A stretch of 64,000 nucleotides of DNA from Pseudomonadota bacterium (GTDB taxonomy: Bacteria; Pseudomonadota; Alphaproteobacteria; UBA2136; UBA6156): NCBI GenBank assembly GCA_016125035.1, contig WGMN01000008.1:39750-103749 (forward strand). The letters are read 5' to 3'. Under the pieces are notes generated by a model. The model was not told the origin of the DNA and ran no database searches. It saw nothing but the letters and a program-made list of their open reading frames with translations. Position 1 is the first letter of the stretch; the number at the start of each line of letters is the position of its first letter. The position numbers and the translations under genes were made by a program. This document shows positions 2,723-57,308 of the stretch, one piece after another.

Positions 2723-4528
2723 TCAACGCACCGGCACATTCACCGCATCGGCCTGCCCCACCATCAGCAGGCAGTACCCACCATCGCAGTCTTCTGCCAA
2801 AATCACCCCCCGCGCCGCCGCCAGCTCGCTGCGTATCCCGGCCACTTCCGTCACTTTGGTCAGCACCAGCACATCCACGCCGCCATGCAGATAATCCGGC
2901 AGCTGCAAAGGCTTTTCCAGCTTCACGAACGGCCGTTCATCAATGTACAGCACGCTGGGCTTGTGCACCCCAAGGTGGATCACCGGCACCGCCCGCGGAT
3001 ACCCCTCAATCTTCAGCGCCAGCCGCGCCAGCGGCGCCTGGCTATAGGCCCACACCACCGGCACCACGCCCCACACGATCACTCCCAGACATAGCGCCCA
3101 CACACCCGCCAGCGCGGGTAACGCGCCGCGCACATTGTTAAGCGTGGCCACCAGCAGCGGCACGGCCAGCAACAACAATACCCCCGCCAGCGGCACGGCA
3201 TGGCCCAGCATCACCGGCTGCTGCAATACGGCAAAGGCCAGCGCATCTTTGGGCGGCCATTTAAAGTCCAGCGCTACCTGCAACCACCCCAGCCAACCGT
3301 GCAAAGTGGTGCCGCGCAGCCCCTCCAACAGGGGGTTGGCCACCAGCGCCAACCCGGCCATCAACAGGCCTATAAGCGCCGCCATGCCCACCAGCCAGCC
3401 GGGCATGCGTCCGCGCGGCACACGCGTCAGCCACCACCCCACCAGCACCGCCAACGCCGGGTAGGCGGGCACAATGTAATGGGCCAGCTTGGTCTGGCTA
3501 AGGCTGAAGAACACCACATAAAACACCGCCCATATCGCACACAACGGCGGCAACGCGCGCACCACATCCTTGCCACCCAGGTTGCGCCACCAGTTGCGCA
3601 AACCATCGCGCAAGGCCACCGGCACCACACTCACCCAGGGGAAGAACCCCAGCGCCAACACCAGCACGTAGTAAAAATAGCTGTTGCTCTGGGTGTTACT
3701 CAATCCTCCGGCATAGCGCCCCACGTTCTGCACCACAAAAAATTCATAAAAGAACGCCCCCCCATGCGCGCGCACCAAAAGCAACGCCCATGGCACCACA
3801 ATCGCCGCTGCCACCAGCATGCTTTCCGCCACGGCAAAGGCCTTCCACACCTCGCGCTTTTCGCGCCGCGCCGCCAGCACCAGCAGCGCCACCACGGCGG
3901 CGGGCACCCACGCCACCGGCCCCTTGGCCAAAAAGCCCAACGCCGCCAACGCGCCGGTCATCCACCCGCGCCACCACGGCAACTTGCGCTTGCCACGCAC
4001 TCCTTTGGGCGCAAACAACAGGTAGATCAGCCACAAAACCAACGCCAGACTAAAAAAGTTAAGCACTCCATCCGCGGTGGCCGCGCGCCCCTCCACCAAA
4101 AAGCTCAGGTTCAGCGCCAACGCGGCGCTGGCCGCCAATGCCCACATCCTGTCGCCGGTCATGCGCCACAGCCATAAACCCAGCAGCAGCACGCACCCCA
4201 ACGCGGCAAGCGCACTGGGCAGCCGTGCGGCATAAAGCGAGCCCTCGCCAAGCCACGCCATCGCCGCATCCTGCAACCAGTAAATCAGCGGCGGCTTGTG
4301 GTAACGCGGCTCACCATTGTAGGTGGGCATCGCCAGGGCCGAGATCCCCTCGCTATGGTGCGCCCGCATCTCAATGGTGGCCTGGGTGAATATCGCCTCA
4401 TCCACGTCAAACAAACCATAACGGTCGTGCCCGGCCAGGTATATCCAGCCGCACAGCAGCGCCAAACCCACCGCCAGCAGCAAGCTTCTGCGCTGCACCT
4501 CACCCAACTCGCGCCACCAACCGGTCAT
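2723..4528 (-). CDS. ArnT/PMT-like polyprenyl-phosphate-sugar glycosyltransferase
   Basis: GLFDVDEAIFTQATIEM... RYHKPPLIYWLQ; many TM helices. Confidence 0.88.
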   Translation of the reverse strand: MTGWWRELGEVQRRSLLLAVGLALLCGWIYLAGHDRYGLFDVDEAIFTQATIEMRAHHSEGISALAMPTYNGEPRYHKPPLIYWLQDAAMAWLGEGSLYAARLPSALAALGCVLLLGLWLWRMTGDRMWALAASAALALNLSFLVEGRAATADGVLNFFSLALVLWLIYLLFAPKGVRGKRKLPWWRGWMTGALAALGFLAKGPVAWVPAAVVALLVLAARREKREVWKAFAVAESMLVAAAIVVPWALLLVRAHGGAFFYEFFVVQNVGRYAGGLSNTQSNSYFYYVLVLALGFFPWVSVVPVALRDGLRNWWRNLGGKDVVRALPPLCAIWAVFYVVFFSLSQTKLAHYIVPAYPALAVLVGWWLTRVPRGRMPGWLVGMAALIGLLMAGLALVANPLLEGLRGTTLHGWLGWLQVALDFKWPPKDALAFAVLQQPVMLGHAVPLAGVLLLLAVPLLVATLNNVRGALPALAGVWALCLGVIVWGVVPVVWAYSQAPLARLALKIEGYPRAVPVIHLGVHKPSVLYIDERPFVKLEKPLQLPDYLHGGVDVLVLTKVTEVAGIRSELAAARGVILAEDCDGGYCLLMVGQADAVNVPVR

Positions 4529-20062: not shown

Positions 20063-20748
20063 ATCACCTCGTCCTCCACCACCTCTGGCTGATAAACCAG
20101 CGGCACTGCCCCTTCCCCCGGTTGCACCTCGGTGTAAATCTGCGCCATCGCCACCGTGCTCATGCGGTCCACCACCTGCATGGTCTCGGCGCTCCATTTG
20201 CCAAAATCATCCGCCAGCAACGCATCCAGGTCGCGCTCCAGCCCGCGCGTGGCCACATAAAAATTCTCGCCCAGCTCTTCCACGTAAGCATCATGGGCCT
20301 CGTCCAAAAGCACCATCGCAGTGGCCAACACTTCCAGCGCATTGTCGTCGTCCAAACCCACCGCCTCGCCCAACTCCTTCCATTCGTCCAGCATCTCTTC
20401 GTCCACCGGCAAGTCAAAGGTCAGGCCGTCACCGGCCTCATTCAACAAGGTCTGTGCTTCCACCAGCGCCCGCTCGGGGTGCCAACCGCTCAGCGTAAAC
20501 AATTCACCAATCTGGTAGTGCGGCATCAGCTCATCACCACGCGCATCGCGCAGCTGCACCACCACCAGGCGGCACTTATGCGTGCGCACCGCCATCAACC
20601 ATTTCCAATGCCAGTAGGCGTGCTCCATGGCCTCGCCCACTGCCATGCTCAGCTTGTCATCCTCGGCTTCTTCCCACCCTTTCAGGCAGGCCTCCAGCAC
20701 CTTGGCGGGCAAAAAGACTTCCTTGGTGTCCAGGTCTTTTTTGCTCAA
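20059..20748 (-). CDS. hypothetical protein between ileS and lspA (229 aa)
   Basis: ORF overlapping both neighbours by 4 nt (operonic). Confidence 0.75.
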   Translation of the reverse strand: MSKKDLDTKEVFLPAKVLEACLKGWEEAEDDKLSMAVGEAMEHAYWHWKWLMAVRTHKCRLVVVQLRDARGDELMPHYQIGELFTLSGWHPERALVEAQTLLNEAGDGLTFDLPVDEEMLDEWKELGEAVGLDDDNALEVLATAMVLLDEAHDAYVEELGENFYVATRGLERDLDALLADDFGKWSAETMQVVDRMSTVAMAQIYTEVQPGEGAVPLVYQPEVVEDEVI

Positions 20749-23700
20749 CGCGCCGGGCCTTGCTGGTTCATCGCTTCCTCACAGCGCAAGCATACGCCAG
20801 AGGCCTCCAACTTCCCATAATAACGCCAACACCGCGGGCACTTGTGACCAACGGCTCGGGTTGCCCTCACAACAATTTGTTCATTCTTACTATCAACAAC
20901 TTTCAGCCGAGAGACACCCATAACCGTCCGAAATTCTTCTTCATCCAGCAACCCGGCAGATTTACTCACGCGGGATACATCCATTTGCACTTCCACATCC
21001 GCTTCGGCATTCGGGCCAAAAATACCTTTTGCCCTTTGTGCCTCCAACTCAACGTTTATTCTGCTACGCGCCGTTGTATAAAAATGCCATCGTTTATCAA
21101 ATTCCTTATCGATTTCGTTTCCATCCACCTCCTCAAACCGCGCCAGGTGAACACACTCACTCTCCCCATACCGCTCACGCCAAACCTCATCGGTGGTGAA
21201 CGGCATCAGCGGCGCCAGATGCGTCGCCAACCCGCGCAAAATCTTCACCAGCACGCTCTGGCAAGCCCGCCGCACTTCCCCATCCTTCGGGTCGCAGTAG
21301 AGAACATCCTTGCGCACATCAAAGTAGAAGTTACTCAGCTCCACGCCGCAAAACTCATACAGCACGCGGTACCCCTTATGGAACTGGAACGCATCAAAAT
21401 GCCCACGCACCTCGCTCAGCACCTTGCCCAGCCGATGCAACATGTAGCTCTCCAGCTCCGGCAGATTCTCCAGCTTCACATCATCATCACTAAAGCCATG
21501 CAAATTCCCCAGCAACCAGCGGAAGGTATTCCTGAACCGCCGATAAGCCTCCGACATGGAATCCATGATCTGCGGGCTGTACCGGATATCCTCGCTGTAA
21601 TCACTGCTCGCCACCCACAAACGGATGATATCCATCCCATACTTGCCCAGCAGCTGGCCCGGCTCCACGCCGTTGCCCAGGCTCTTGGAAAACTTCCGCC
21701 CCTCGCCGTCCACCACAAACCCGCTGGTCACCACGCTCTCATAGGGCGCATCACCATAGTTGGCCACACTGGTCAGCAGGCTGGAGTGGAACCACCCGCG
21801 GTGCTGGTCACTGCCTTCCTGATACAGATCCGCCGGGCGCTTGCCATCCTCGCGGTGGAAGCGCTGGCCCGGCGCACTGTCCGCCCGCAGCACGTGCGCA
21901 TGCGTGGTGCCGCTGTCAAACCACACGTCCAGAATATCCTGCACATAGTCAAAATCACTGGCCTTCACACCATGCTTATCCAACCACCCATCGGGGAACA
22001 ATTCCTCCTTCCGCCCGCTCTCAATCCGGGTGTCCCACGCATCAATCCCCTCACGCTCAACCAACCCGGCAATGTGCTCCCACACCGCGGGGTCAACAAC
22101 AATCCCACCCCTCACCACCTTCTCATCACCGATCAGCGATAACCGATCACCGATCACCGTAATCGGCACCCCCCAAGCCCGCTGGCGGCTAATGCACCAA
22201 TCCGGCCGATGCTCGATCATGCTGCCAATGCGGTTGGCGCCATACTCCGGCACCCACTGCACGCCGCGCACGCCCTCGCGCGCATAGATCCTGTCCAAAC
22301 TGCTCTGCCGCAAATCCTTGCCGGTCTCGGGTATCTTCACCCCATCCAACGCAATGAACCACTGCTCCGTGGTGCGGTAGATCAACGGCTTCTTGCTACG
22401 CCAACTAATCGGATATTTGTGCACCAGCTCGGCACGGTGCAGCAACCTCCCGCTCGCCACCAATTCAGCAATAATCTCTTCCTGCGTCTTCCAAATGTCC
22501 TTGCCCGCAATCTCCACCCCCGTTAGCGGCAACTTCTCCACCCACGCCTCATACTTCCCGCTGCCATCCACCGGGCACACCAGCGGCAAATCAAACTGCT
22601 TCCCAATTTGGTAATCCTCCGGCCCATGCGCAGGCGCAATATGCACCAACCCCGTCCCCGCATCCGTGGTCACGTGGAAACCCTCCACCACCGGCTGCAT
22701 CACCCCCACATACAAAGGGTGTTCATACATCCAATCTGTTAACTGAGAGCCCTTGAGAGGGCTGCTCTCTTTACTTACCTGGAAACCCGTCTGTTTAATA
22801 AAGTCTGAGGCCAAGGCCTTGGCAACCCAAACCGTTCCACCAAGCTTGCGCGCCGCCGCCGTTTTTTCAAAACTTTCGGTGTCCTGCCGCGAAATCTCTA
22901 TGGGGTTCACCATCCCGGTCAGCCCCACATATTCCTCATCCGCCTTCACCGCCACCGCCCGGTTCGCCGGCAACGTCCAAGGCGTCGTCGTCCAGATAAC
23001 GAGGAACTCGTTATCCCCCGCGACCTCGCGACCCCGTTCCCCGCTACCCTTCTTCACCGGCAACCCCACATAAACCGCCGTACTCTTATGCTTTTCATCA
23101 TACTCAACCTCGGCTTCCGCCAGCGCGGTCTCCTCCACCGGCGCCCACAGCGTGCTGCGCAAGCCTTTGTAAACCAGGTTGCGCGCCACCATCTTGCCCA
23201 GCTCGCGCACAATCCCCGCCTCGTTGCCCGGCGCCATGGTCAAATACGGGTGGTCCCAGTCGCCCAACGCCCCAAAACGCTGCCATTCGCTCTTTTGCAC
23301 ATCCACCCATTTTTGCGCGTAGGCCCGGCAACGCGCGCGCAACTCGGCCTTGCTCACATCGCGCTTGGTCTTGCCCTCGGCGCGCAGGTCCTGCTCCACT
23401 TTCCATTCAATCGGCAACCCGTGGCAGTCCCAGCCCGGCGCATAGGGGCTGTCAAAGCCACCCATAAACTTGCTGCGCACCACAAAGTCCTTCAGCACGT
23501 AGGTCAGCACGTGCCCCATGTGGAAGTTCCCGTTGGCATAGGGCGGCCCCAGGTGAACAATATATTTTCCCGCCCCCTCTTCCAGCCGCCGCTCGCGCAA
23601 CCGCTCATAAACCTTGCCGTCCAGCCACCCGGCCACCCAGCCCGGCTCGCGCGCCGGCAGGTTGGCGCGCATGGCAAAATCGGTCACCGGCAACTGCAAC

Positions 23701-23759
23701 GTCTTGCCGTAATCGTTGCCCTGCGCCGCCGCGCCCTTCTTGTCCGACATTTCAGCCAT
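20745..23759 (-). CDS. ileS: isoleucine--tRNA ligase
   Basis: HLGPPYANGNFHMGHVLTYVLKD; GWDCHGLPIEWKVE; KFSKSLGN; C-terminal CPRCWRY/CLRCEEA zinc motif. Confidence 0.98.
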   Translation of the reverse strand: MAEMSDKKGAAAQGNDYGKTLQLPVTDFAMRANLPAREPGWVAGWLDGKVYERLRERRLEEGAGKYIVHLGPPYANGNFHMGHVLTYVLKDFVVRSKFMGGFDSPYAPGWDCHGLPIEWKVEQDLRAEGKTKRDVSKAELRARCRAYAQKWVDVQKSEWQRFGALGDWDHPYLTMAPGNEAGIVRELGKMVARNLVYKGLRSTLWAPVEETALAEAEVEYDEKHKSTAVYVGLPVKKGSGERGREVAGDNEFLVIWTTTPWTLPANRAVAVKADEEYVGLTGMVNPIEISRQDTESFEKTAAARKLGGTVWVAKALASDFIKQTGFQVSKESSPLKGSQLTDWMYEHPLYVGVMQPVVEGFHVTTDAGTGLVHIAPAHGPEDYQIGKQFDLPLVCPVDGSGKYEAWVEKLPLTGVEIAGKDIWKTQEEIIAELVASGRLLHRAELVHKYPISWRSKKPLIYRTTEQWFIALDGVKIPETGKDLRQSSLDRIYAREGVRGVQWVPEYGANRIGSMIEHRPDWCISRQRAWGVPITVIGDRLSLIGDEKVVRGGIVVDPAVWEHIAGLVEREGIDAWDTRIESGRKEELFPDGWLDKHGVKASDFDYVQDILDVWFDSGTTHAHVLRADSAPGQRFHREDGKRPADLYQEGSDQHRGWFHSSLLTSVANYGDAPYESVVTSGFVVDGEGRKFSKSLGNGVEPGQLLGKYGMDIIRLWVASSDYSEDIRYSPQIMDSMSEAYRRFRNTFRWLLGNLHGFSDDDVKLENLPELESYMLHRLGKVLSEVRGHFDAFQFHKGYRVLYEFCGVELSNFYFDVRKDVLYCDPKDGEVRRACQSVLVKILRGLATHLAPLMPFTTDEVWRERYGESECVHLARFEEVDGNEIDKEFDKRWHFYTTARSRINVELEAQRAKGIFGPNAEADVEVQMDVSRVSKSAGLLDEEEFRTVMGVSRLKVVDSKNEQIVVRATRAVGHKCPRCWRYYGKLEASGVCLRCEEAMNQQGPAR
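22125..22159. repeat. heptamer array (ATCACCG)x5 inside ileS
   Basis: ATCACCG ATCAGCG ATAACCG ATCACCG ATCACCG. Confidence 0.92.
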
Positions 23760-23908
23760 GCTAAATCGCTAACCCCTTCAAATCCCCAAAATTCGTAAAA
23801 ATCAGGGGCCACCCTATCCAAAAACCCTTCCCCCCACAAGCGCCGCCTTGTATAATCCTTGGGCAAGGTAAAGAGTGCCACCGCGTCAACATCAGGGAGT
23901 TTACTTCC

Positions 23909-33866: not shown

Positions 33867-35384
33867 ATGGCCAATCCTCAAGCCGCGCCGGAAGATAAAA
33901 ACTTCGCCACCCTGCAAACGCTCGGTGAGCTGGGCGATTCCTACAAATACGGCTTCACCACCAAGGTAGAGGCCGAAACCCTGCCCCCCGGCCTCACGGA
34001 AGAGACCATCCGCTTCCTCTCCGCCAAAAAGGCGGAGCCCGAATGGCTGCTCCAATGGCGCCTCAAAGCCTTCGCCCGCTGGAGCACCATGGAGCACGAA
34101 CCCACCTGGGCCAAGATCCACCACCCGAAAATCGACTACCAGGCCATCTCCTACTACTCAGCGCCCAAAAACTTCACCGAAGGCCCCAAATCGCTGGATG
34201 AGATCGACCCGGAGATCCGCAAAACCTACGAGAAGCTGGGCATCCCGCTGGCCGAGCAGGAAATTCTGGCTGGCGTGCAAAACCCGACCAACCAGGCCAA
34301 AGCCAACCCCATCGCGGTGGACGCGGTGTTCGACTCCGTCTCCGTGGCCACCACTTTCCGCGCCGAGCTTGAAAAGGCGGGCGTCATCTTCTGCCCCATC
34401 TCCGAGGCCGTGCACAAACACCCGGGGCTGGTGCAAAAGTACCTGGGCTCGGTGGTGCCGGCGGCAGATAACTTCTTCGCCGCCCTCAACTCGGCGGTGT
34501 TCACCGACGGCTCGTTCGTTTATGTGCCGGAAGGCGTGCGCTGCCCGATGGAACTCTCCACCTACTTCCGCATTAACGAGAGGAACACCGGCCAGTTCGA
34601 GCGCACTCTCATCATCGCCGAGAAGGGCTCTTACGTCAGCTACCTGGAAGGCTGCACCGCGCCCGTGCGCGACGAAAACCAGCTCCACGCCGCGGTGGTG
34701 GAACTGGTGGCGATGGAAGACGCCGAGATCAAATACTCCACCGTGCAAAACTGGTACCCGGGCGATGAGAACGGCAAAGGCGGCATCTACAACTTCGTCA
34801 CCAAGCGCGGCGCCTGCCGCGGCGCACGCAGCAAAATTTCATGGACCCAGGTAGAGACCGGCTCCGCCATCACCTGGAAGTACCCCAGCTGCATCCTGGA
34901 AGGCGACCACTCGGTGGGCGAGTTCTACTCGGTGGCCCTCACCCGCAACCACCAGCAGGCGGATACGGGAACCAAAATGTTCCATAAGGGCAAAAACACC
35001 CGCAGCATCATCATCGCCAAGGGCATCTCGGCAGATAACGGCGACAACACCTACCGCGGCCTGGTGGATATGGCCGCCACCGCCACGGGCTCGCGCAACT
35101 ACACCCAGTGCGATTCCCTGCTCATCGGCAACAGCTGCGGCGCCCACACCGTGCCCTACATCACGGTCAAGAACAGCACCTCCAAGGTGGAGCACGAAGC
35201 CACCACCAGCAAAATCTCCGACGACCAGCTCTTCTACTGCGCCCAACGCGGCCTGGCGGAACAAGACGCCGTGGCGATGATCGTCAACGGCTTTGCCAAA
35301 GAGGTCCTGCAAAAACTCCCGATGGAATTCGCCGTGGAAGCGCAAAAACTCCTCGGCATTTCCCTGGAAGGCTCGGTGGGCTAA
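33867..35384 (+). CDS. sufB: Fe-S cluster assembly protein SufB
   Basis: [13 protein letters not shown]...[20 protein letters not shown]...[23 protein letters not shown]. Confidence 0.98.
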
Positions 35385-35487
35385 TGTTATTTTTCAAGAT
35401 TCCAAAAACGCCGAAGGCCCCGCACAAGGCGGGGCCGTCGTCGCAGCGGCGCATCCACCGCAAATCTCTCTTGGCCGTGGCCTCACC

Positions 35488-35685
35488 TCACAGGTGCGCC
35501 ATGAAGGAACCGAAGCCCTTCGCCACAACCGCGGCCAACTCTTCATCGGTCAGGCCGCCACTGGCGGCCGATGCCGCGCAGGCCTTTCCACCCACAACCC
35601 CTTCCGGGGGCTTCACCTCCGTCGTGGTCGCAGCACGCGGGCGCTTGGGCCCACCGTTCAAATTGAGAAATCCGAAGTCGCTCAT
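35488..35685 (-). CDS. putative small protein (65 aa) antisense between sufB and sufC
   Basis: MSDFGFLNLNGGPKRPRAATTTEVKPPEGVVGGKACAASAASGGLTDEELAAVVAKGFGSFMAHL. Confidence 0.45.
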   Translation of the reverse strand: MSDFGFLNLNGGPKRPRAATTTEVKPPEGVVGGKACAASAASGGLTDEELAAVVAKGFGSFMAHL

Positions 35686-35808
35686 CGCCGTTTCCCCTCA
35701 AGGTTTTCTCTTGCCAGCGGCAAGGTATTTTATACGGAAGGCTCTCAGATCGTCCCCACAACCTAGGTACTTCCAGTCCAAAAATCAACCCACAAACAAG
35801 TAACTGAT

Positions 35809-36578
35809 ATGCTTAATATTTCCAACCTCAACGCCACCGTAGAAGAAGCCAACAAGGCCATTCTCAACAACTTCAGCCTGTCCATCGCCCCGGGCCAGGT
35901 CCACGCCATCATGGGCCCCAACGGCGCGGGCAAGTCCACCCTGGGCTACACCCTGGCGGGCCGGGAGGGCTACACCGCCACCTCCGGCACCGCCACCCTC
36001 ACCACCAATCACGAATCACGAATCACGACCTGCTGGAGATGGAACCGGACGAACGCGCCCGCGCCGGGCTGTTCCTCGCCTTCCAGTATCCGGTAGAGCT
36101 CCCCGGGGTCAACACCGCGCAATTCCTGCGCACGGCTCTCAACGCCCACCGCGCCGCACGGGGGGAGGCCGAGCTGGAAGCCCTGCCCTTCCTCAAACTG
36201 GTGCGCACAGAAATGCAAAAACTCGGCATGAGCGAAGAGTTCCTCTCGCGCTCGGTCAACACCGGCTTTTCCGGCGGCGAGAAAAAGCGCTTCGAGATTT
36301 TGCAAATGGCCCTGCTGCAACCCACCCTCGCCATCCTGGATGAAACCGACTCCGGGCTGGATATCGATGCCCTCAAAGTCGTCGCCCAGGGCGTCAACGC
36401 CCTGCGCAATCCGCAACGCTCGTTCCTCATCATCACCCACTACCAGCGCCTGCTCGACTACATCAAGCCGGATGTGGTGCACATCATGGCCGCAGGCAAA
36501 ATCGTCAAATCCGGCGGCCCGGAACTGGCCCAACAACTTGAAGCCCAAGGCTACGATGCCGTCATCCGTAACCCGTAA
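35809..36578 (+). pseudogene. sufC: Fe-S cluster assembly ATPase SufC, reading frame broken at a heptamer array
   Basis: Frame 1: [13 protein letters not shown]...[29 protein letters not shown]; frame 3: [28 protein letters not shown]...FSGGEKKR...[15 protein letters not shown]; switch at 36007-36027. Confidence 0.88.
36007..36027. repeat. heptamer array (AATCACG)x3 inside sufC
   Basis: aatcacgaatcacgaatcacg. Confidence 0.95.
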
Positions 36579-36594
36579 CTCGTCACCAGTCACA
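36567..36594. repeat. degenerate heptamer array CGTAACC CGTAACT CGTCACC AGTCACA at sufC 3' end
   Basis: Direct reading; includes the sufC stop codon. Confidence 0.8.
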
Positions 36595-36649
36595 TCCCAT
36601 GCCGCACACACATCTTCTTCTCACCACCAACCGCCCTCTCACTCCAAAC

Positions 36650-36677
36650 GGGTTACGGGCCACGGGTTACGGGTTAC
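36650..36677. repeat. heptamer array (GGGTTAC)x4 abutting the sufD start
   Basis: GGGTTAC GGGCCAC GGGTTAC GGGTTAC GGTA-ATG. Confidence 0.92.
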
Positions 36678-36681
36678 GGTA

Positions 36682-37929
<1,248 letters not shown>

Positions 37930-37932
37930 AAT

Positions 37933-37967
37933 CGTAACCCGTCACCCGTCACCCGTTACCCGTAAGG
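37933..37967. repeat. heptamer array (CGTxACC)x4-5 just after the sufD stop
   Basis: CGTAACC CGTCACC CGTCACC CGTTACC CGTAAGG. Confidence 0.92.
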
Positions 37968-37990
37968 GTCTCGGCATGGCGTTGCGCACC

Positions 37991-38025
37991 ACGGGCTACG
38001 GGTTACGGATTACGGGTTACGGTCT
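37991..38025. repeat. heptamer array (ACGGGTT)x5, inverted relative to 37933, abutting sufS ATG
   Basis: ACGGGCT ACGGGTT ACGGATT ACGGGTT ACGGTCT ATG. Confidence 0.92.
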
Positions 38026-39222
38026 ATGAGCTGGCACCACCTCTTCCCCGCGCTGCAAGCCCAACCCCACGGCCAGCGCCTGGCGTTCCTGGATAGCGCC
38101 GCCTCCGCACAAAAACCCCACGCCGTCCTCACCGCCCTCACCCAAACCCTCTCCGGGCCGTACGCCAACATCCACCGCGGGCTGTACCACAACAGCGCCG
38201 TCACCACCCAAGCGTATGAAGACGCCCGCGCCACGCTGGCCCGCTTCCTCGGTGCCCCCGCAAACAGTCTCATCTTCACCCGCAACAGCACCGAGTCCAT
38301 CAACCTCGTCGCGCAAACCTGGGGCCGCCAAAACCTCACCGCCAAATCCGTCGTCACCCTCAGCGAAGTCGAGCACCACGCCAACATCGTCCCCTGGCAA
38401 CTCCTGCAAAGCGAGATCGGCTTCACCATTCGCGTCATCCCCGCCACCACCTTCCTACAACCTACAACCTACAACCTACAACCTCTCTTACAAGGCACCA
38501 CGCTGCTCGCGCTCACCCAAATGAGCAACGTCACCGGCCTTAAGCCGGACCTCACCCACATCATCCCGCTGGCCAAACAACACGGCGCCCACGTGCTCAT
38601 CGATGGCTCCCAGGGCGCCGTCCACAGCCCGCAAAACCTCACGCAACTCGGCGCGGATTTCTACACCCTCACCGGCCACAAACTCTATGGCCCCACCGGC
38701 ATCGGCCTGCTCTACGCCCGCCCGGAAATCCTCGCCACCATGCCACCCTACCAGGGCGGCGGCGACATGATCGAACAGGTTACTCTCCCCACCGGTACCA
38801 CCTTCGCCCCACCGCCCGCGCGCTTCGAGGCCGGCACCCCCGCCATAGCAGAAGCCATCGGCCTTGCCGCCGCCGCGCAGTTCGTGGAATCCCTCGGCTG
38901 GCCCGCCATCACCAAACTGGAACACAGCCTCGCCACCCACCTCACCGAAGCACTGTCTTCCCTGCCCTTCATCCAAACCTACTCCCCCGCCGCCACCGGC
39001 ATCGCCGCCTTCAATGTCAAAGGCTGCCACCCGGCCGACATCGCCACGCTGCTCGACCAACAAGGCGTCGCCGTCCGCAGCGGCCACCACTGCGCCATGC
39101 CGTACATGAAGGCCCTGGGCATCGAAGGCTGCCTCCGCGCCTCCATCGCGCTGTACAACACCGAGGAAGACATCACCCAACTCACCACCGCCCTCACCAA
39201 AGCCCACAAGATGCTCACCTAG
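38026..39222 (+). CDS. sufS: cysteine desulfurase SufS
   Basis: IHRGLYHNSAVTTQAYEDAR...TRNSTESINLVAQTWG...DGSQGAVH...GHKLYGPTGIGLLYAR...VRSGHHCAMPYMK. Confidence 0.96.
   Translation: MSWHHLFPALQAQPHGQRLAFLDSAASAQKPHAVLTALTQTLSGPYANIHRGLYHNSAVTTQAYEDARATLARFLGAPANSLIFTRNSTESINLVAQTWGRQNLTAKSVVTLSEVEHHANIVPWQLLQSEIGFTIRVIPATTFLQPTTYNLQPLLQGTTLLALTQMSNVTGLKPDLTHIIPLAKQHGAHVLIDGSQGAVHSPQNLTQLGADFYTLTGHKLYGPTGIGLLYARPEILATMPPYQGGGDMIEQVTLPTGTTFAPPPARFEAGTPAIAEAIGLAAAAQFVESLGWPAITKLEHSLATHLTEALSSLPFIQTYSPAATGIAAFNVKGCHPADIATLLDQQGVAVRSGHHCAMPYMKALGIEGCLRASIALYNTEEDITQLTTALTKAHKMLT
38455..38482. repeat. heptamer array (CTACAAC)x4 inside sufS
   Basis: ctacaacctacaacctacaacctacaac. Confidence 0.95.
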
Positions 39223-39353: not shown

Positions 39354-39384
39354 CGAATCACGAATCACGAATCACGGATCACGG
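39354..39384. repeat. heptamer array (CGAATCA)x4 immediately upstream of sufT
   Basis: CGAATCA CGAATCA CGAATCA CGGATCA CGG; cyclically the same unit as the sufC array. Confidence 0.95.
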
Positions 39385-53202: not shown

Positions 53203-53278
53203 CCCCCCCTCTATAGCCAGGGGGTAAACCCCCTCGCACTCTCCCGCACTCCGTCGCACCGGCCGTGGGGCCCCACCC

Positions 53279-53338
53279 CTCGCTACCTCGCTACCTCGCT
53301 ACCTCGCTACCTCGCTACCTCGCTACCTCGCTACCTCG

Positions 53339-53356
<18 letters not shown>
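53279..53356. repeat. octamer array (CTCGCTAC)x8 followed by (CTCGTTC)x2
   Basis: Perfect 8-bp units 53279-53342, then 7-bp units 53343-53356; overlaps the resB stop. Confidence 0.97.

Positions 53357-57308
<3,952 letters not shown>

Follow-up and report, generated by a model that had tools for sequence, protein, structure and literature searches.

A broken sufC frame at a heptamer tract and a dispersed family of heptamer arrays in core genes of an alphaproteobacterium

The suf locus and the frame change in sufC

The window, by which the whole analysed stretch of 64 kb is meant, holds a suf operon in which sufC (35809-36578, forward strand) follows sufB and is itself followed by sufD, sufS and a SUF-associated gene, the flanking genes being intact (Table 1). 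The reading frame of sufC is open through the Walker A motif, runs into a perfect threefold AATCACG tract and is resumed behind it in another frame. This break had been claimed in a sequence-only reading of the same DNA, and it is borne out both by direct reading of 35400-37000 and by profile search. From position 35998 the codons CTC ACC ACC lead into the three AATCACG units, which are followed by ACC TGC; the perfect period-7 run covers 36007-36028 and has the sequence AATCACGAATCACGAATCACGA. The 5' frame (positions 1 mod 3), which includes the motifs GPNGAGKST and GTATL, is open from the ATG at 35809 to a stop at 36096 and encodes unrelated sequence between the array and that stop, while the 3' frame is carried by positions 0 mod 3 from 36027 to the stop at 36578. 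The two frames match positions 1-64 and 65-242 of TIGR01978, respectively, leaving no gap between the two parts of the protein. The 3' part alone, with 268 bits, lies above the cut-off of that profile (212.8 bits), and a single-frame, full-length match above the cut-off was not found for the deposited sufC, which is spread over two frames. The C-terminal part has kept 71-80% identity, and neither part carries any other lesion. The earlier arithmetic, according to which the downstream part requires a net +1 (mod 3) that an additional heptamer would supply, is right: the copy number of the unit sets the frame, with one, four or seven units in register and three units out of it.

Table 1. Genes and heptamer arrays at the suf locus and elsewhere; positions refer to the window unless prefixed by another locus.
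Feature	Position	Strand	Evidence
ileS array (ORF 20748-23768, -), in frame	22125..22159	-	codon model, ORF context
sufB, intact	33981..35384	+	NF008773/TIGR01980
sufC 5' part, N-terminus through Walker A and GTATL, followed by out-of-frame tail up to stop	35809..36096	+	TIGR01978 positions 1-64; translation
sufC heptamer array, 24 bp, site of frame change	36004..36027	+	direct reading, array scan
sufC 3' part, DLLEMEP to C-terminus	36027..36578	+	TIGR01978 positions 65-242, 268 bits; E. coli SufC alignment
CCGTAAC array at sufC end, inverted partner of 36648-36679	36566..36587	+	array scan, RNA folding
ACGGGTT array, ends 2 nt before sufD start codon	36648..36679	+	array scan, RNA folding
sufD, intact	36682..37929	+	TIGR01981
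CGTNACC array, 31 bp, between sufD and sufS, inverted partner of 37991-38022	37933..37963	+	array scan, RNA folding
ACGGGTT array, ends 3 nt before sufS start codon	37991..38022	+	array scan, RNA folding
sufS, intact, with in-frame array	38026..39222	+	TIGR01979; PDB alignment
(CCTACAA)x4+CCT array in sufS, 31 bp, in frame, zero net length change vs same-genus SufS	38454..38484	+	array scan, alignment
CGAATCA array, 31 bp, just upstream of SUF-associated gene (ATG 39391)	39354..39384	+	array scan, gene profile
CCTCGTT array in 495-aa ORF (53342-54826, -; no NCBIfam name), in frame	54102..54124	-	codon model, ORF context
der/engA (G000:C2); array at 1147-1170	L200:508-2063		TIGR03594
Arrays ending near start codons	window 36679/36682, 38022/38026, 39384/39391; L166:8749, L166:10371, L169:9297, L211:3050, L214:7710

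The genome of this uncultured bacterium comprises 1.45 Mb in 18 contigs and is 90.7% complete. An intact sufC elsewhere, which in the sequence-only reading would, together with reads uniformly showing three copies, make the broken copy a simple pseudogene, did not turn up when this genome was searched: one sufC is present, and neither a second copy nor an IscU or ISC scaffold was found in it at E <= 0.001. Fe-S proteins, NuoG and MiaB among them, are encoded. A single isc-suf operon is common in Alphaproteobacteria (PMC11475020). Those family members whose sufC can be read across the site have an open, array-free gene with about three residues in place of the array, the SufC of a same-genus genome reading ATL-NGT-NLLELEADERA; a search for a genome of the same species that differs in copy number found none, the nearest being that same-genus genome. 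An apparent split in the sufC of the related genome G007 coincides with a run of N further downstream.

The regions between sufC and sufD (36566-36679) and between sufD and sufS (37933-38022) carry inverted pairs of arrays that fold into strong RNA hairpins (z -4.7 and -5.1), and similar pairs were seen at L160:10166-10338 and L198:12136-12290. Many intergenic arrays furthermore end 1-17 nt upstream of a start codon, at the position of a Shine-Dalgarno sequence, where they could affect translation.

A dispersed family of heptamer arrays

That the sufC tract is a member of a large dispersed family was absent from the sequence-only reading. Chance is excluded as the source of the tract, since seven near-perfect period-7 runs were observed in the window against 0.0 expected under a first-order Markov model, with all other periods at background. 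Arrays were then counted over 821 kb of the genome, about 57%, sampled in stretches. The first sample, 426 kb, yielded 58 period-7 arrays scoring at least 12, compared with 0-8 at the other periods from 5 to 13; the second, a held-out sample of 395 kb drawn after the array hypothesis had been formed, yielded 33, compared with 0-11 at the other periods from 5 to 12, and period 14, the doubled unit, was raised in it as well. When the score is lowered to at least 10, both samples together contain about 107 arrays. Exactly 31 bp, corresponding to four heptamers plus 3 bp, is the length of 31 of these 107, the runner-up being 32 bp (n = 10), and the held-out sample agrees. Perfect arrays cluster at 17, 24 and 31 bp, that is, at two, three and four heptamers plus 3 bp, and 14 of the 26 perfect arrays above the 17-bp threshold have lengths of 3 mod 7 (p about 3e-6, with one in seven expected).

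Arrays of 31 bp follow the scheme XXXYYYYXXXYYYYXXXYYYYXXXYYYYXXX, for which 18 different units were counted. The commonest units (CCGAATT, AGGTTGT, AGGAACG, ACGAATC) contain neither GGG nor CCC. Minority letters amount to 0.6, 0 and 3.9% at the XXX positions and to 8.1, 10.5, 4.0 and 8.1% at the YYYY positions, a comparison in which the choice of the array ends favours XXX. Written in this 3+4 register, the sufC array comprises ACC and three copies of AATC ACG, and thereby falls exactly one unit below the modal length of 31 bp. Most relatives carry hardly any such arrays: none in 99 kb of G001, the same-genus genome, one each in 160 kb of G008 and 51 kb of G009, and six in 101 kb of G007. No period-7 array was found, at a slightly stricter score, in 769 kb from 80 loci of other, mostly alphaproteobacterial genomes. 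Two arrays of unusual dimensions were also noted, a perfect 8-bp array, CCTCGCTA in 8.6 copies, at 53278-53346 of the window, which adjoins a CCTCGTT array at the boundary of the ORF 53342-54826 (-), and a perfect CCGTAAC array of 60 bp (8.6 copies) at L210:7247-7306, far above the modal length.

Arrays inside genes and a second break in der

Judged by a codon model and ORF context, applied to every sampled array, at least 25 arrays lie in frame within long ORFs, and two gene arrays are not in frame. The genes bearing in-frame arrays, mostly core or housekeeping genes, are sufS, ileS (IleRS), leuS (LeuRS, three arrays), pheT (two), dnaE, lon, pyrG (CTP synthase), recF, nuoG, nuoL (two), nuoM, nuoN, a lolC/E gene, mnmA, a nifS/iscS-type desulfurase gene, miaB, asparagine synthase, era, a phaC-like gene, a dsbB-like gene and an unnamed ORF; LQPTTYNLQP is an example of the peptides encoded in this way. 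Arrays inside genes account for 25-27 of the 91 that score at least 12, below the coding share of the genome by a comparison that is not a formal one. If insertion were blind to frame, at least 25 of 27 in frame would be expected with p about 2e-10, a rough value in that in-frame and broken arrays are recognised by different signs. Such a bias speaks for strong purifying selection acting on the genes concerned.

Alignments with solved homologues and with relatives place the examined gene arrays where homologues differ in length, as for example in LeuRS, CTP synthase and Lon. The net change in length is 0 residues in SufS and +5 to +11 in LeuRS and PheT relative to the same-genus protein, and would be +8 in a four-unit SufC. 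Net changes that range from 0 to about +11 residues are at odds with a single insertion of constant size and favour overwriting, or insertion accompanied by loss; a plain 28-bp insertion with a 3-bp target duplication is thus unsupported as the general origin. In-frame arrays of 23-24 bp exist as well (in the dsbB-like gene and at 54102), so that a length of 24 bp is not always a defect. The genome G007, which belongs to another genus, has arrays with other units within sufD, within sufS and close to where the clpB frame ends (L194:1410-1435, 3009-3039 and 3815-3845).

Only sufC and one further gene, der (EngA), are broken at an array among all those sampled. The frame of der changes exactly at (CCGAATT)x3+CCG, a site that separates the two GTPase domains, and the two halves are the best TIGR03594 matches and the sole pair that together covers the model, representing the only full EngA of the genome. 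Der is essential in the bacteria in which it has been studied. The arrays of sufC and der share no sequence, and both are 24 bp long, one heptamer short of 31, with the same frame step; a length of 31 bp would put both genes back in register. Other arrays that show a different coding phase on their two sides proved on re-reading to be gene junctions or ambiguous. When 172 kb of the genome's own coding DNA was searched by tblastn with proteins of relatives, the only convincing frame break was that of sufC, and the other candidates examined, all but one in L175, were effects of contig ends, antisense matches or gaps.

The missing unit and its relation to known repeats

From the family observed here and its modal length, from the in-frame position of its arrays in many core genes and from the parallel defect of der, we infer the state of sufC in the living cell and the cause of the missing unit as follows. 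The working sufC probably carries a four-unit array, and the deposited three-unit sequence would be a one-unit contraction, not a functional switch. The earlier claim that a functional sufC has one more unit is supported by the modal length of 31 bp, of which the sufC array falls one unit short, and by the same defect in der with a different unit. The sufC tract belongs to a dispersed XXX(YYYYXXX)n family with many unrelated units, in which n = 4 (31 bp) is commonest and whose arrays have entered genes as well as gaps, presumably persisting in genes only in frame and where the protein tolerates them. In sufC the array lies behind the Walker A part and ahead of DLLEMEP, at a place that relatives fill with about three residues, and four units would give an intact SufC enlarged by a loop of about 8 residues. 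By the same reasoning der is presumably four-unit in the living cell, and its contig sequence one unit short. As to the cause of the contraction in sufC, collapse of the tandem tract in assembly or consensus has a somewhat better than even chance; tandem repeats are known to cause assembly collapse (PMC6868369). Against it stands that many perfect 31-bp arrays have been retained in the same assembly, where collapse must therefore be the exception. Slippage during replication, affecting some members of the population, is an unlikely cause, albeit one of real weight.

Of the two possibilities raised in the sequence-only reading, a collapsed repeat (or else a variant that slipped by chance) is the better fit, and phase-variable switching of a core Fe-S gene found no support. 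Adaptive phase variation would require that gain and loss of units turn sufC on and off to the benefit of the population. The copy number does set the sufC frame, der is a second gene with the same one-unit step, and a heptanucleotide case is known from the hmw genes of Haemophilus influenzae (PMC8262952). However, SufC is the sole copy and probably essential, no IscU was found, Der is single too and likewise expected to be essential, 25 of the 27 gene arrays are in frame and reside mostly in housekeeping genes, and three or four units are few for a fast switch, all of which makes this reading very improbable. The view that the lineage has lost sufC for good, the gene being a true pseudogene and Fe-S clusters being assembled by other means, can appeal to the deposited gene being both broken and the only copy; it must contend with two parts that are fully SufC-like and free of further lesions, with intact sufB, sufD and sufS, with Fe-S enzymes still encoded and no IscU found, and with a loss of der that would be required as well. 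A fixed null is unlikely given a sole SufC and an essential Der, and little credence can be given to this explanation. Ribosomal -1 frameshifting at a genuine three-unit array is scarcely credible, for while the breaks in sufC and der both need the same -1 step, neither array shows, to the eye, a slippery heptamer of the type X XXY YYZ, folding of the RNA surrounding the sufC tract gives no more structure than that of its shuffles (z +0.95), and the two arrays have no sequence in common.

Among known repeats, the closest parallels to the family are the GGGNATC arrays of Xanthomonas and the GGGGA(T/C)T arrays of Nostoc, whose four-unit preference was linked to G-quadruplexes and which are under-represented in coding regions (Rehm et al. 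2015, PMC4692102). Shared features are the heptamer unit, the genome-wide dispersal, the clear four-unit preference (31 of 107 arrays at 31 bp in the present case), inverted pairs and a frequent closeness to start or stop codons. The Xanthomonas and Nostoc arrays, however, are each built on one G-rich unit, whereas the arrays described here employ many units, mostly without GGG, have a sharp length of 31 bp, and lie in frame within genes in more than a quarter of the sampled cases. The commonest units are not of the G-rich, G-quadruplex-capable kind. A four-unit preference with units mostly lacking G-runs, inside core genes, means that G-quadruplexes cannot be the general cause. In the elements known as Rickettsia palindromic elements, short repeats likewise lie in frame inside core genes of an alphaproteobacterium; they are, however, longer, palindromic and of shared sequence, whereas here direct repeats are found whose unit differs from site to site, and RNA folding gave no hairpin at the sufC tract. 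These elements are mentioned in PMC1950309 and PMC10969869. The TAACTGA direct repeats of marine Beggiatoaceae (PMC4679880) are similar as abundant, dispersed heptamers with few copies per set, but comprise one unit only, are mainly intergenic, and have related heptamers that are rarely repeated, unlike the many-unit arrays of this genome. The hmw1A gene of H. influenzae (PMC8262952) resembles sufC in having a heptamer tract that could change expression through its number of copies; there, however, surface adhesin genes with many units are concerned, and here core single-copy genes with few units and arrays nearly all in frame.

What appears to be new is that heptamer arrays of one fixed length, built from diverse units, have invaded core genes in frame; an earlier description of such gene-borne arrays was not found in a literature search that reached few of the subscription journals. 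Several bacterial lineages are known to be enriched in heptamer arrays. As a tentative proposal, which may well prove wrong, a unit-independent active process might write fixed-length XXX(YYYYXXX)4 arrays into chromosomes across this bacterial family, either over existing gene sequence or as insertions within it, and leave dozens of core proteins with short repeat-encoded peptides. If so, the four-unit preference in Xanthomonas and Nostoc would stem from that process and not from G-quadruplexes. The present genome offers both insertion sites and protein tolerance for study. The alarming sufC frameshift is likely to be a one-unit miscount, and false pseudogenes may be reported when genes are called, or completeness is estimated, for genomes of this kind.
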